From an uncultured Ilumatobacter sp. (GTDB taxonomy: Bacteria > Actinomycetota > Acidimicrobiia > Acidimicrobiales > Ilumatobacteraceae): a stretch of DNA of 64,000 bases. Shown here piece after piece: positions 14,720 to 22,586 of the stretch. The stretch lies in contig CAJQPY010000011.1 in NCBI GenBank assembly GCA_905480335.1, positions 1-64,000 of the forward strand, read 5' to 3'. The notes under the pieces were generated by a model, which did not search any database, had not been told where the DNA came from, and worked only from the letters and a program-made list of their open reading frames with translations. Both the position numbers and the translations under genes were made by a program. How positions within the stretch are numbered: the first letter of the stretch is position 1; every line of letters starts with the position of its first letter.

Positions 14720-14773
14720 CGACGACGAAGTTTGATCCTCAGAATGGGCCGTTGGACCCTGGCTGGAATGCGC

Positions 14774-14800
14774 AGTTCTTGAGTTAATGAATCAAGAACT
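14774..14800 (+). promoter_or_regulatory. Perfect 9-9-9 palindrome abutting the Rrf2 start codon
   Basis: AGTTCTTGA and its exact complement TCAAGAACT are separated by 9 bases and end immediately before the ATG of the Rrf2-like gene. The size and position fit an operator for a dimeric winged-helix repressor that would block its own gene and the nirK gene behind it. Rrf2 proteins such as NsrR and IscR bind dyads of roughly this size. Binding is inferred; only the symmetry is observed. Confidence 0.6.
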
Positions 14801-15139
14801 ATGCGACTCAAGCTGCAGGCAAGAACCGAACTTACGCTCAAGACGTTGCGTGCGTTGTCGGACCAACGCCGATGGCATGGCGCAGCGCGGGGCGAGCAGA
14901 CCGATTCGAGCGCTGCCTACATGGCGCGCATCGTCGCCCCGCTGACGCACGCAGGTTGGGTTACCTCGGTGCCTGGCCCTACCGGTGGGTGTCAATTGGT
15001 CGTCCAATCTCAAGGAGGTGTCGTTGCATGACCTCATCGAACTCGTCGAGGGCTCTACCGACGATTGCAGGTGTGTGCCCGAGGTGTGCTGACGGCTGAA
15101 CTCGAGTCCATTCCGCTCGCCCAGATCATCCGGAAAAGG
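14801..15139 (+). pseudogene. Rrf2-family (NsrR-like) regulator, frameshifted
   Basis: The first frame gives a clear Rrf2 winged helix: MRLKLQARTELTLKTLRAL, then AAYMARIVAPLTHAGWV and GPTGGCQL, but it stops after 76 residues. From about base 15003 the next frame continues the family (LKEVSLHDLIELVEGSTDD, then CRCVPEVC, where Fe-S cysteines of NsrR/IscR lie) and stops at 15092. The first frame then resumes the expected C-terminal helix (LTAELESIPLAQIIR). Two frame changes and a loss of roughly 20-25 residues are needed. It is either a real pseudogene or an assembly error. Its location in front of a nitrite reductase suits an NO- or Fe-S-responsive repressor. The ATG abuts a perfect palindrome. 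Confidence 0.75.
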
Positions 15140-15149
15140 AGACCCAGCC

Positions 15150-16568
15150 ATGAACTATCGACATTTGATGAGAGGATTGTTCGTTGCCGTACTGGCCTTC
15201 GGCGCCACTGCCTGTGCGCCTGACGCGCCCGACGGCGCAGGGAGCGCGGAGCAGGTGCGCGACGCCAGCGTCGCAGCGGCGTCTGCGGCTGGCGTCTTGC
15301 AGCCGGGCGACACGGTTGAATTCTTCGCGTCGGAGTTCGCTTTTGCGCCATACGAAATCACCGCGGAGCCCGGAACCTACAGGGGCATTCTCGTCAATCA
15401 GGGCGAGGTCGATCACGACATTAAGTTCGACAACGGCGACAGCATTGTCGCCAGCGCCGGGCAGTCGGTCGAATTCGGGTTCACGGTTCCTGAGGGGGGT
15501 GTTGTATTCACCTGCACGATTTCGGGACACGCCGATGCAGGCATGGTCGGCATCGTCCACACCCCTGCATCGCTCGCGGCGGTTCCAGCGGCAGACGAAG
15601 CCGGTCATGCCTCACCTCCCGATGAGTTTCCGGTCGTGGAACTTGACCCTGACGCCCCGCCGTATACCGTCCGCGACCCTCGCGCTCCAGCGCGTGGCGA
15701 GGGTGAAGGGGTAACCCTCATTGAGGGAGGTGCACCTGATGGTGGTGACCTGCTTACGGTCGAGATGACGGTTGAGGAGAAGTTGATGACCGTAGCGGAG
15801 GGCTATGAGCAGCTGGTTTGGACGTTTAATGGAACTGTGCCTGGACCGGTCATTCGGACGGAGGTGGGCGATACGGTTCGAGTCCACCTGGTGAATCCGA
15901 TCGAGTCTGAAGTACCGCACTCTATTGACTTCCATGCGTCGCAAGTTGCCTGGAACGACGAAATGCGCTCAATTGCGCCGGGTGAAGACCTGATCTATGA
16001 GTTCACCACCGACTACGCCGGTGTATGGATGTACCACTGCGGGACCGATCCGGTGTTGCACCACATTGCGAACGGAATGTTCGGGATGGTGATCGTTGAA
16101 CCTAAGGGAGGACTTGCCCCTATGGAGAACGAGTTTTTCCTCGTGCAAAACGAGTGGTACCTCGGAGCACAGGGCGAGGTGTCATCGTTTGCCAAGGCAA
16201 ACCAGGCGGCACCGGCTCCAGACTTCGTGATGTTCAACGGCGTTGCGAAGCAGTACCTTGACAATCCGATCGAGGTCCCCACTGGCGCAGACGTCCGGTT
16301 GTACGTGTTGGACGTCGGGCCGTCAATCGACTCGTCGTTCCACATCGTCGGCACGATTTTCCATAATGTCGTGAAGGAAGGAGTCCAGTTGTTTGAGGGC
16401 AACGATGGCAACTGGGGCTCTCAGGCGGTCGACCTCGCACCCGCTCAAGGCGCAGTGATCGAGTTACGCACGCCAGAGGACGGGCTCTACCCGATTGTCA
16501 CGCACGCCTTCAACTTTCCCGGCCGCGGGGCTATTGAATTGCTCCAGGCGGGTGACGGCGAACCGTGA
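15150..16568 (+). CDS. nirK: Copper-containing nitrite reductase with extra N-terminal cupredoxin, lipoprotein
   Basis: Exported enzyme of 472 residues reducing nitrite to nitric oxide. A lipobox (GATAC) puts the lipid on Cys22, so the protein is membrane-anchored outside. Residues about 50-137 form a plastocyanin-like domain with a type 1 copper set H89, C122, H127, M132. The two NirK cupredoxin domains follow. Their type 1 ligands are H257, C297, H305 and M310, and type 2 ligands H262, H296 and H452. The catalytic aspartate D260 (IDFH) and histidine H398 are also present. All copper ligands seem intact. The architecture resembles the Hyphomicrobium type, where the extra domain may pass electrons. 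It lies directly behind the broken Rrf2 gene. A GGAG ribosome site precedes ATG 15150. Confidence 0.88.
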   Translation: MNYRHLMRGLFVAVLAFGATACAPDAPDGAGSAEQVRDASVAAASAAGVLQPGDTVEFFASEFAFAPYEITAEPGTYRGILVNQGEVDHDIKFDNGDSIVASAGQSVEFGFTVPEGGVVFTCTISGHADAGMVGIVHTPASLAAVPAADEAGHASPPDEFPVVELDPDAPPYTVRDPRAPARGEGEGVTLIEGGAPDGGDLLTVEMTVEEKLMTVAEGYEQLVWTFNGTVPGPVIRTEVGDTVRVHLVNPIESEVPHSIDFHASQVAWNDEMRSIAPGEDLIYEFTTDYAGVWMYHCGTDPVLHHIANGMFGMVIVEPKGGLAPMENEFFLVQNEWYLGAQGEVSSFAKANQAAPAPDFVMFNGVAKQYLDNPIEVPTGADVRLYVLDVGPSIDSSFHIVGTIFHNVVKEGVQLFEGNDGNWGSQAVDLAPAQGAVIELRTPEDGLYPIVTHAFNFPGRGAIELLQAGDGEP

Positions 16569-16583: not shown

Positions 16584-16988
16584 TCAGGCGGCGCGGGAAA
16601 TGCCAGCTCGTTTGAGGACGCTGGCCTCGACGCCGACATCACGCCAACTGGCGTAGGAGATTTTCTTGCTCGCGCTGTAGCTCTTGGCTACCTCGATGAA
16701 CGCACCCTCAAGTGACACCATGTCGACCTTGTTCGACATCGCCGCTATCTCGGCCTCCAAATCGCGGCGCTCCTGGACCAGTAACAGCTCGTCCATTGGG
16801 CTTGCTTCGGCTAGGTCCAACTCGATTGCGTCGAGTCGCTTTTGAATGGTTTCAGCGGTTCGCTTACGGCCTCGCTTCGGTTTTGTGGCGCGCAGGCCCT
16901 CGAGATAGTCGCGCACGATGCGACCTTCGTTGCGGCCCTTGGCCAGGGCTGCTTTATGTTCGTCGGACATTTCTCGCTTGGTCACCAT
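16584..16988 (-). CDS. Conserved actinobacterial protein of unknown function
   Basis: Charged protein of about 134 residues beginning MVTKREMSDEHKAALAKG; an alternative start is the internal ATG at 16970. A basic segment (KPKRGRKRT) is followed by long helices likely to form a coiled coil (about residues 50-90) and a C-terminal part SYASWRDVGVEASVLKRAGI that looks like a small helical nucleic-acid-binding element. I recall similar unannotated proteins across actinobacteria, but no function is assigned. The track's longer ORF start would run into the divergent thioesterase gene. It is convergent with nirK and shares a roughly 50-base divergent promoter region with the thioesterase. Confidence 0.7.
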   Translation of the reverse strand: MVTKREMSDEHKAALAKGRNEGRIVRDYLEGLRATKPKRGRKRTAETIQKRLDAIELDLAEASPMDELLLVQERRDLEAEIAAMSNKVDMVSLEGAFIEVAKSYSASKKISYASWRDVGVEASVLKRAGISRAA

Positions 16989-17036
16989 CTCAACATTGTA
17001 CGGATCTCGGATAGATTGCAATACAGTTGTCTCGAA

Positions 17037-17873
17037 ATGTTTGAATTGGCAGCACATGGACCCGACGTGCATGTGGGTAATGGTCCCCAATATCCATGGG
17101 GCGGCCTGTACGGCGGGCAGATTGTTGCGCAGTCGTTACGGGCGGCCACGCTGTCGGTCGACATCGAACTCGAACCGCATTCAATTCGTGCATATTTCAT
17201 TCGCCGCGGCGATGCGTCCGAGCCGGTTCGCTACGAAGTGGACCGCATTCGTAACGGACGGTCCTTCGCCACTCGTCGGGTCGTCGCGCGCCAAGCGGTG
17301 GGAGCGATCTTGAACGCGGAAAGTTCCTTCCAGCGCCCTGAAGCATCCGTTGAGATGCAGACCATCGAGATGCCGGACGTGCCGCCGGCCGAGGTGCTGG
17401 AGCAAGAATCCTGGTCGCCAGCTTTCCAGCGGGCGTTAGTGCCTGCCGACCGCGTGGTTGACAGTCGGCGAGACGGCGCAGGCCGAACCGTTGCCTGGAT
17501 GAAGGTGTCTGACTCGATCGGTGACCCCGCCGACCCAGCGACGCAGTTGCTGCACCGCTGCTGGCTTGCATTCGTCTCAGACGACCTGCCCACGGACGCA
17601 GTACATCGCACGCATCCGATGTCGCAACAGGTCGACGAAGCCGAGGTCGCCGATGGTGGCGGCGGAGACCACCTATTCGCGGCGAGCCTCGATCACACCG
17701 TGTGGTTTCATCGTAATCTTGCAGCAGACCAGTGGCACCTGCACGACTTCTCCTGTCTGCATTTTGTCGGCGGACGCGGTCTGGCGCTCGGTCATATCTT
17801 CTCCGCTGAGGGCGTTCACGTCGCCACGGTCGCGCAAGAGGTTCTGATGCGCGACACTCGCGACCGTGCTTGA
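17037..17873 (+). CDS. Acyl-CoA thioesterase (TesB-like, double hotdog)
   Basis: Hydrolyses acyl-CoA to free acid and CoA. The family start PQYPWGGLYGGQIVAQSLRAA is near residue 17, the first hotdog continues to RRVVARQ, and the second ends with FVGGRGLALGHIFSAEGVHVATVAQE, typical of TesB C-termini. I choose ATG 17037 (MFELAAHGPD, 278 residues) because the track's upstream ORF crosses the divergent gene; TTG 17016 is also possible. No clear ribosome site precedes it, so a leaderless transcript is plausible. The stop overlaps the serine dehydratase start by 8 bases. Confidence 0.85.
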   Translation: MFELAAHGPDVHVGNGPQYPWGGLYGGQIVAQSLRAATLSVDIELEPHSIRAYFIRRGDASEPVRYEVDRIRNGRSFATRRVVARQAVGAILNAESSFQRPEASVEMQTIEMPDVPPAEVLEQESWSPAFQRALVPADRVVDSRRDGAGRTVAWMKVSDSIGDPADPATQLLHRCWLAFVSDDLPTDAVHRTHPMSQQVDEAEVADGGGGDHLFAASLDHTVWFHRNLAADQWHLHDFSCLHFVGGRGLALGHIFSAEGVHVATVAQEVLMRDTRDRA

Positions 17874-19917: not shown

Positions 19918-20404
19918 GCGCGCTGCGTCTCTACCCCCTATCGGATGGACCTGACCGATCTTTTGGATCCGGCCTAATTACGGACCTGACTTGCGAGTTG
20001 CAGTAGCGCCCGTATCGCCCATATCGCAGCCGAGGTGCCGATAACCCGTGCCGTATAGGGAGACGTTCGGTCGGTTGCCTGAGCAATGTCTACGGTGAGC
20101 GACGGCCGAAATCACTCCGGTCGGGTGTCCGTGAGCCTGTGGAATCGAGACAACCATCGAAGACCACGGCGGCCCCACCGTCGTACTGTTCGCCATCGGT
20201 GATCTGATCGCGGTGGCGAACGCCAAACTCTCTGTCGCGGATTGCGGGTTCGCTGCCAAGTAGGTCGCCGGTGTCACCGAGACCTTTCGGGCAGGTGGTG
20301 TCCACGCACGGATTTGCCAGTTCTTGGACACCGACAATCAGATGGTGGCTGACACTACATCCGGCGCTTGAACGATCGGGCATTTGATTTGCTTGACTGG
20401 GATC
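19918..20404. other. Gap of about 490 bases without a recognisable gene
   Basis: Short open stretches occur on both strands but none resembles a family I know. On the plus strand two short frames around 20150-20370, separated by a stop, have plausible protein-like composition (for example TVVLFAIGDLIAVANAKL) and might be remnants of a decayed gene. No tRNA, clear terminator or repeat was seen. The last bases must contain the promoter for the bifunctional beta-oxidation gene. Confidence 0.35.
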
Positions 20405-22501
20405 ATGTCCGAACCGATCACCGTGTCCGAATCCGTCCGCCTTGAACGTGAGGGAGATATTTCTCTGGTGGTCGTCGCCAATCCGCCGGTGAACGCTTTG
20501 AGTTGGCACGTTCGCCAAGGGCTCTTCGACGGGATCACGCGGGCCACCAATGATGGTGCGAAGGCGATCGTCGTGATCTGCGATGGTCGGACGTTCATTG
20601 CCGGTGCCGACATCAGCGAGTTCGGTGGTGGAGCACCACACGCAGTCGGCCTCCAGGAGGTCCAAACGGCGATGGAGGATGCATCGGTCCCGGTGATTGC
20701 CGCCATTCACGGAACGGCGCTTGGCGGTGGACTCGAAGTCGCGCTCTGCGCTCACTATCGCGTCGCAGTTACTTCGGCGAAGTTCGGGTTGCCGGAGGTC
20801 AATCTTGGACTGCTGCCTGGCGCCGGTGGAACGCAGCGCTTGCCGCGACTCGTAGGGGTGCCTAAAGCATTGGAGATGATGACGACAGGGCGACACATCA
20901 GCAGTGTCGAAGCACTTGACGGTGGCCTGATCGACGACGTCGTCGATGGGGACCCGGCTGCGCTACGCGATGCTGCAATCGCGTTTGCCAACCGAGCCGT
21001 TACCGAAGACCTCCCTCTGCTTCGGGTGCGCGACCGCGACGAGAAGGTGGCCCAAGCACGAGGTGACGATCAGCTTTTTGTCGACTTCCGAAGGGGAATC
21101 GCCCGCAAAACTCGCGGATTCCTCGCACCGGAGTACAACATTCAGTGCATCGAAGCGGCAGCAAACCTGCCATTCGATGCAGGTTTAAAGGTCGAAGGAA
21201 AGCTGTTCATGGAGTTGATGACCGGCCCACAGTCGGCGGCGCAGCGCTATGCGTTTTTCGCTGAACGCGCAGCGAACAAGATTCCTGGCATCGCCAAGGA
21301 CACGTCACTGATTGACGTGCGCAAGGTCGGCGTGCTCGGCGCGGGCACGATGGGCGGTGGCATTGCGATGAACTTCGTCAACGTCGGGATTCCGGTGACG
21401 ATCGTCGAACGTGATGCAGCCGCACTCGATATGGGACTCTCTGTGGTGCGGAAGAACTATGAACGGTCTCGCTCTACTACCGCAGAACAAGTCGAGCAGC
21501 GCATGGCGTTGATCACAGGTTCGATCGACAAGTCTGATTTTGCCGACTGTGACATGGTCATCGAAGCGGTCTTTGAGGACATGGCCCTTAAGCAGTCGAT
21601 CTTCCGAGAGCTCGACGAGATCTGCAAGCCGGGAGCGTTGCTTGCCTCGAATACGTCGGCGCTCGACGTGAACGAGATTGCTGCTGTGACGTCGCGTCCG
21701 GAGAGTGTGATCGGGATGCACTTCTTCTCGCCCGCCAACGTAATGAAGCTGCTTGAGAATGTCCGCGGCGCAAAGTCGAGCGACTCGGTCGTCGCCACCA
21801 CCATGGCGATCGGCAAGAAGATCGGGAAGGTCTCCGTGATGGTCGGGGTCTGTCCGGGATTCGTGGGAAACCGGATGCTGTTCATGCGCGGTGCCGAAGC
21901 CGAACGGATGATCCTCGAAGGAGCGACGCCTGCCCAGGTCGACAACGTGCTTTATGAGTTCGGATTCCCGATGGGTCCGTTCTCGATGAGCGACCTTGCC
22001 GGTCTTGACATCGGTTGGAAAGAGCAGGCGTCCTCGTCGTCGACGATCCGTGAGGTCCTCTGCGAGAATGGTCGACGCGGCCAGAAGAACGGTCGTGGCT
22101 ATTACACGTATGATTCGGACACTCGGGCCGCCACACCCGACCCTGAGGTCGAGCAACTGATCAAGGACTTTGCCGTTGGCCAGGGCATCGAGCAGCGTGA
22201 CGTCACCGACCAAGAGGTGCTCGAACGGCTGCTGTACCCAATGGTCAACGAGGGAGCGAAGATTCTCGAGGAGAAGATTGCGATTCGCGGGAGCGATATA
22301 GATGTGGTGTGGGTAAATGGTTACGGCTGGCCGGTCTACCGGGGCGGCCCGATGCATTGGGCTGATTCAATCGGTCTCGCCGAGATCGTCGGGAAGATTG
22401 AGGGATACAGCGCCTCACTCGGTGGCGGCCACTGGGAACTCAGCCCGCTGCTGCAGTCTCTCGCTGGGTCGGGTGGCCAACTGCAGACTTACTCGGGCTG
22501 A
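20405..22501 (+). CDS. fadJ: Bifunctional enoyl-CoA hydratase/3-hydroxyacyl-CoA dehydrogenase
   Basis: Multifunctional beta-oxidation protein of 698 residues. Residues 1-190 form the crotonase domain with the oxyanion region HGTALGGGLEVALCAHYRVA and catalytic glutamate region LPEVNLGLLPGAGGTQRLPR. A linker leads to the NAD-binding domain (VGVLGAGTMGGGIAMNF) near residue 305, with catalytic histidine in VIGMHFFSPANVMKLLE, and two C-terminal 3HCDH repeats. The symbol denotes the family; FadB and FadN types are close. I start at ATG 20405, 7 codons inside the track ORF. A strong hairpin follows the stop by about 50 bases. Confidence 0.92.
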   Translation: MSEPITVSESVRLEREGDISLVVVANPPVNALSWHVRQGLFDGITRATNDGAKAIVVICDGRTFIAGADISEFGGGAPHAVGLQEVQTAMEDASVPVIAAIHGTALGGGLEVALCAHYRVAVTSAKFGLPEVNLGLLPGAGGTQRLPRLVGVPKALEMMTTGRHISSVEALDGGLIDDVVDGDPAALRDAAIAFANRAVTEDLPLLRVRDRDEKVAQARGDDQLFVDFRRGIARKTRGFLAPEYNIQCIEAAANLPFDAGLKVEGKLFMELMTGPQSAAQRYAFFAERAANKIPGIAKDTSLIDVRKVGVLGAGTMGGGIAMNFVNVGIPVTIVERDAAALDMGLSVVRKNYERSRSTTAEQVEQRMALITGSIDKSDFADCDMVIEAVFEDMALKQSIFRELDEICKPGALLASNTSALDVNEIAAVTSRPESVIGMHFFSPANVMKLLENVRGAKSSDSVVATTMAIGKKIGKVSVMVGVCPGFVGNRMLFMRGAEAERMILEGATPAQVDNVLYEFGFPMGPFSMSDLAGLDIGWKEQASSSSTIREVLCENGRRGQKNGRGYYTYDSDTRAATPDPEVEQLIKDFAVGQGIEQRDVTDQEVLERLLYPMVNEGAKILEEKIAIRGSDIDVVWVNGYGWPVYRGGPMHWADSIGLAEIVGKIEGYSASLGGGHWELSPLLQSLAGSGGQLQTYSG

Positions 22502-22550
22502 GGCTGCGGTCTATTCGCCGGGAGCGGCGGATGCGAGGTGCCTACCGCAA

Positions 22551-22577
22551 CGAGCCCCCGCCGAGGGCGGGGGCTCG
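22551..22577. terminator. Strong hairpin between fadJ and the tRNA block
   Basis: CGAGCCCCCGCC and its exact complement GGCGGGGGCTCG form a 12-bp GC-rich stem with a 3-base loop. It follows the fadJ stop on the plus strand and also lies just past the 3' end of tRNA-Phe on the minus strand, so it could end both converging transcripts. There is no long U-run on either side. Confidence 0.7.
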
Positions 22578-22586
22578 TTCGTGCGG

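Follow-up and report, generated by a model that had tools for sequence, protein, structure and literature searches.

The nirK locus and its rrf2 remnant

The 64,000-nt stretch analysed here (the window) comes from an uncultured Ilumatobacter sp. (contig CAJQPY010000011.1, assembly GCA_905480335.1) and contains, on its forward strand, an intact nirK gene (15150–16568) that encodes a copper nitrite reductase with an N-terminal cupredoxin domain. The gene is preceded by an rrf2 pseudogene (14801–15148, forward strand), by a perfect 9-9-9 inverted repeat (14774–14800) that ends at the rrf2 start codon, and by a DosR/OsdR(DevR)-type box (14746–14760, forward strand) whose centre lies ~47 nt before that codon. 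The assembly, referred to below as the window genome, is a MAG of 51 contigs that is 94% complete. In a survey of 222 genomes of the family, this nirK was found in eight, the window genome included; the other seven are G064, G038, G123, G079, G067, G017 and G007, each species being represented by one genome. G064 (Ilumatobacter sp. SS_bin_52) is the nearest relative with this nirK and served as the reference for the rrf2 alignment.

The nirK product matches the Pfam families Cu-oxidase_3, Cu-oxidase_2 and Copper-bind, and its best matches in the PDB are copper nitrite reductases (E 2e-51). Alignment with the Geobacillus-type enzyme 3wkq locates the type 1 and type 2 copper ligands and the catalytic Asp and His in the motifs HSIDFH, MYHC, HHIANGM, SSFH and THAF, which start in the region of positions 257, 294, 304, 395 and 449, respectively. 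The TIGR02376 model scores 167 bits, under its equivalog cut-off of 296. The gene has an AGGAG ribosome-binding site of its own and shares 65–75% identity with its family orthologues over nearly its full length. It is intact and under constraint. Downstream of nirK and facing it lies a 168-aa open frame (16584–17090, reverse strand) with no Pfam match. In the same window, a long fatty-acid oxidation ORF (20384–22501) is closely followed by a perfect 14-3-14 inverted repeat, AACGAGCCCCCGCCGAGGGCGGGGGCTCGTT (22549–22579), probably a terminator. The nirK match of G007 (L048, C1:427337–428692) contains one in-frame TGA and sits among densely clustered DosR-type boxes, with a DosR-type regulator gene nearby.

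The first frame of rrf2 encodes 76 residues from the ATG at 14801 to a stop at 15031; the winged-helix half is in frame to ~15000, Rrf2-like sequence then goes on in a second frame (SLHDLIELVEGSTDDCRCV), and a third frame holds the tail (LTAELESIPLAQII). Alignment with the intact G064 gene reveals one extra base near 15003 and a gap of ~61 bases near 15077, two separate lesions less than 80 bp apart. The gap amounts to ~20 codons and removes two of the three cysteines, in agreement with the preliminary description, which had reported a frame broken twice with loss of 20–25 residues around the Fe–S cysteines. The Pfam Rrf2 profile (PF02082) recognizes only the first half of the window gene (31.5 bits, profile positions 4–67 of 132); the intact G064 orthologue covers positions 9–130. 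The remnant is homologous to the Rrf2 family (45–56% identity to the four intact nirK-linked proteins described next), but the window has no full-length winged-helix and dimerisation region in a single frame.

An intact Rrf2 gene of 137–148 codons is found directly upstream of the orthologous nirK in four of the seven other genomes (G064, G038, G123 and G079). All four proteins carry a three-cysteine cluster, of the form CVMADRxC-x5-C in three of them and CVMANRPC-x5-C in G038. The G064 cysteines (CVMADRICLSAVPC) are spaced C-x6-C-x5-C, an NsrR-type set of three of which two are lost from the window. Neither the intact G064 protein nor the window fragment is listed as matching NF008240, the curated model for NsrR. 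NO sensing by the intact Rrf2 proteins is plausible, given their three cysteines and their linkage to nirK. In G067, G017 and G007, nirK and the box are present with no rrf2 immediately upstream, so that a missing local repressor is not unusual in the family.

Two sites in the promoter region

The inverted repeat reads AGTTCTTGA-N9-TCAAGAACT and the rrf2 ATG follows it directly, exactly as first described. When the 80-bp gap between purB and the ATG was shuffled, arms of at least nine arose in 0.2% of cases. The rest of the 64 kb holds nine more inverted repeats whose arms are at least as long, so what sets this repeat apart is not the length of its arms but its position and conservation. Odd-centred inverted repeats with the same core precede the intact rrf2 of G064, G038 and G123, where they end at the start codon or a few bases upstream of it (cores: window, TTGAGTTAATGAATCAA; G123, TTGAGTCGATGACTCAA; G064, TCGAGTCGATGATTCAA; G038, ATGAGTCCATGATTCAT). 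The arms pair over 13 positions at 12 in G123, 11 in G064, 11 in the window and 10 in G038, each reached by 0–0.45% of shuffles. The G079 repeat is weaker (8 of 13 pairs, reached by 21% of shuffles) and not significant. G067 and G017 have no adjacent upstream rrf2, and the final 42 nt ahead of their nirK showed no significant repeat of this type.

The arms vary among species yet stay largely complementary, as expected of the site of a dimer. Given the significant repeats of shared core at the same place in three relatives, the palindrome very probably serves the Rrf2 repressor as its operator. The proposal that a local repressor has been lost while its operator-like site survives is supported, with an intact gene in the same place in four relatives and a matching repeat in three. 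A role as an RNA hairpin was judged less likely, as the repeat adjoins the start codon and there is no clear ribosome-binding site; this arrangement would suit a leaderless start.

The box, GGGCCGTTGGACCCT, was overlooked in the preliminary description and lies 13 nt upstream of the palindrome. It equals the last 15 positions of the OsdR consensus at 12 of 15, and it resembles both that OsdR/DevR consensus, AGGGCCGATCGGCCCT, and the OsdR site before Streptomyces narG2, AGGGACCTTCGGCCCC (PMC5069765). In each of the eight family members that carry this nirK, the same box, (R)GGACCTTCGRCCCT, or a close variant stands ahead of the gene, at 35–40 nt from the first start codon in six and at 75–78 nt in two. 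Genome-wide, box matches exceed those of control patterns in G064 (18 versus 4) and G007 (51 versus 24). They do not in the window genome (9 versus 9), where a first DosR-box pattern with one mismatch was likewise not enriched, and some other relatives, such as G079 (15 versus 18), show weak enrichment or none. The argument for the identity of the box is therefore carried by clustering in G064 and G007. Eight of the 18 matches in G064 lie on contig C20, home of its DosR-type regulator gene, and the boxes of G007 concentrate at 393–432 kb of C1, with nirK at 427 kb and the DosR-type gene at 434 kb. In G038, the distances between boxes and the regulator gene are within ~0.5 and 10 kb. Of the DosR-type boxes in the window genome, the best (TTTGGGACCTTCGGCCCTG; L109 and L132) is located on contig C45 near 20,680, before a gene for a membrane-anchored cupredoxin whose frame runs into unrelated sequence after GHAESGMVG; this gene, too, may be a regulon member that has decayed.

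The DevR-type recognition helix AEKT(V/I)KNYVSNLL occurs in a response regulator of G064, G038, G017 and G007. The best PDB match of the G064 protein is DevR (3c3w, E 8e-64), and a DosR-type regulator at least 70% identical to it is present in seven of 11 members of the genus, G064 counted. In the window genome, the best match to the G064 protein is only 42% identical and DesR/LiaR-like; the genome encodes three GerE (LuxR-type) proteins, none of them DosR-like. Two LuxR-type candidates were set aside, that on C37 being DesR/LiaR-like beside an ABC transporter and that on C6 being short and without a receiver. As the assembly is 94% complete and the gene could sit in the missing part, loss of the DosR-type activator from the window species is likely rather than proven. 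The box is a better candidate than the palindrome for control by a regulator encoded elsewhere, although no such regulator was found in the window genome.

Probable decay of rrf2 and competing readings

The break in rrf2 is probably real, since the DNA-binding half appears to have evolved faster at codon positions 1 and 2 while the neighbouring nirK has changed evenly. At these positions the remnant shows 22–23 changes unique to the window, against 7–11 unique to G064. The relative-rate test with three outgroups gives P values of 0.058, 0.016 and 0.005, below 0.05 with two of the three; it spans 66 codons and is supportive, not conclusive. Amino-acid changes in nirK are even between the window and G064 (P 0.18–0.61). 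The remnant is 56% identical to its G064 counterpart and the nirK of the same pair 77%, and the G064 Rrf2 protein is closer to those of other genera (59–64%) than to the window remnant. Leave-one-out counts of unique residues (six for the window, six for G079) do not separate the two on their own, so that the argument for decay rests on the rate test. As dS is saturated, dN/dS was given no interpretation.

An assembly or sequencing error, with rrf2 intact in the living organism, is one alternative, the data coming from a single genome, a MAG of 51 contigs. We consider this unlikely, as it would have to place two independent lesions, one of ~61 bases, in one small gene, whereas most of the remaining window is tiled by long ORFs that look intact, with no obviously broken gene among them. 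Nor would indel error raise the rate at codon positions 1 and 2 outside the lesions. That raised rate also speaks against the reading that the 76-residue product, which lacks Fe–S site and dimer helix, is made and binds the palindrome independently of a cluster. The open frame from the ATG at 14801 does still reach the Pfam Rrf2 cut-off, but the helix-turn-helix region has undergone the radical changes G22Q, A31G and G35D at positions invariant in the other four proteins. Rrf2 proteins dimerise through their C-terminal half, and that half is lost here; we regard this reading as very improbable indeed.

The palindrome has stayed perfect while the gene decays, which would fit its use by another regulator of the window genome, such as the IscR-like Rrf2 with two cysteines encoded on C10, in control of nirK. 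For a regulator that has its own gene, one further operator or more would be expected, but the genome search found no second good copy: with up to three mismatches allowed, the sole other match in the window genome is a GC-rich site with three mismatches, and the loose core TTGANTN5ANTCAA, with one mismatch, gives 16 matches against 14 control matches per strand and hence no regulon. Two other Rrf2 proteins were found in this genome, the IscR-like one and one without an Fe–S cysteine cluster, and no other with three cysteines. With the site unique and no such protein at hand, the suggestion that the palindrome is used by a regulator elsewhere is unsupported, and we think it quite improbable. 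The perfect repeat covers only 18 positions and is thus weak evidence either for recent loss or for continued use.

Proposed control of nirK and its likeness to known systems

Decay of a local repressor gene before nirK, with nirK left constitutive or under other control, is in our view the probable explanation of the locus. In the intact relatives, rrf2 and nirK lie head to tail downstream of a single promoter region that carries both sites. As in Streptomyces and Mycobacterium, the DosR/OsdR-type box would by analogy bind a hypoxia- or NO-responsive activator that may switch rrf2-nirK on under hypoxia or NO. The inverted repeat over the start region would be, by its position, the autoregulatory operator of the three-cysteine Rrf2 repressor, whose Fe–S form would keep the promoter off until NO destroys the cluster. 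Gene order, the position of the sites and what is known of the families lead us to infer regulator binding at both sites as well as NO sensing. In the window species, the extra base and the deletion take the cysteine cluster and the dimerisation half out of the rrf2 frame. With the repressor broken and the activator not found, we expect nirK of this lineage to be expressed constitutively or controlled in some other way. It is possible, though rather doubtful, that both dedicated controls have been lost with the gene and both sites kept, nirK now being under a new regulator or expressed constitutively as a housekeeping enzyme that produces NO or removes nitrite.

The analysis describes a putative control region for nirK in Acidimicrobiia with two sites, a DosR-type box and an Rrf2 operator, and offers a natural case in which the enzyme has outlasted its local repressor and, apparently, its activator. 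Such a case makes it simple to test for nitrite reductase expression free of hypoxia or NO control in these uncultured bacteria, a question that bears on the release of NO and N2O. Two of its elements are already known, the Rrf2–nirK pairing in Nitrosomonas and Neisseria (PMC1274295) and DosR-type control of nitrate reductase (PMC5069765). No account of the DosR-type box and Rrf2 operator together at one nirK promoter turned up in the literature searched, and this combination, with the apparent loss of both controls in one lineage, appears to be new.

In Nitrosomonas europaea (NsrR–nirK) and Neisseria (NsrR–aniA/nirK), a repressor of the Rrf2 family controls copper nitrite reductase (PMC1274295). 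The present locus is similar in that an Rrf2-family repressor accompanies nirK and the promoter contains an inverted-repeat operator. The Neisseria promoter has a second, oxygen-responsive FNR site beside its NsrR sites (PMC1274295), whereas the second site here is DosR-type. Unlike the NsrR systems, the protein is actinobacterial, its intact relative gives no NsrR equivalog match, the operator sequence is another one, and the repressor gene of the window is broken. With the regulons of DosR/DevR in Mycobacterium and OsdR in Streptomyces, the locus shares box sequence and promoter position; in those regulons boxes cluster around the regulator gene, as they do in G064 and G007, and Streptomyces OsdR controls the nitrate reductase Nar2 (PMC5069765). 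The target here is nirK instead, and the window genome yielded no such regulator gene.

The Rrf2 fold is shared with RsrR, CymR and IscR, and the PDB matches of the intact G064 protein are the Rrf2-family entries 6y45 and 6hsd, CymR and IscR. In contrast to these three, the Rrf2 proteins of the intact relatives combine three cysteines with linkage to nirK. In MAGs of Chloroflexi (loci L068–L087 and L096), a related nirK often has an Rrf2 gene within ~1–2 kb, which extends the Rrf2–nirK pairing beyond Actinomycetota.
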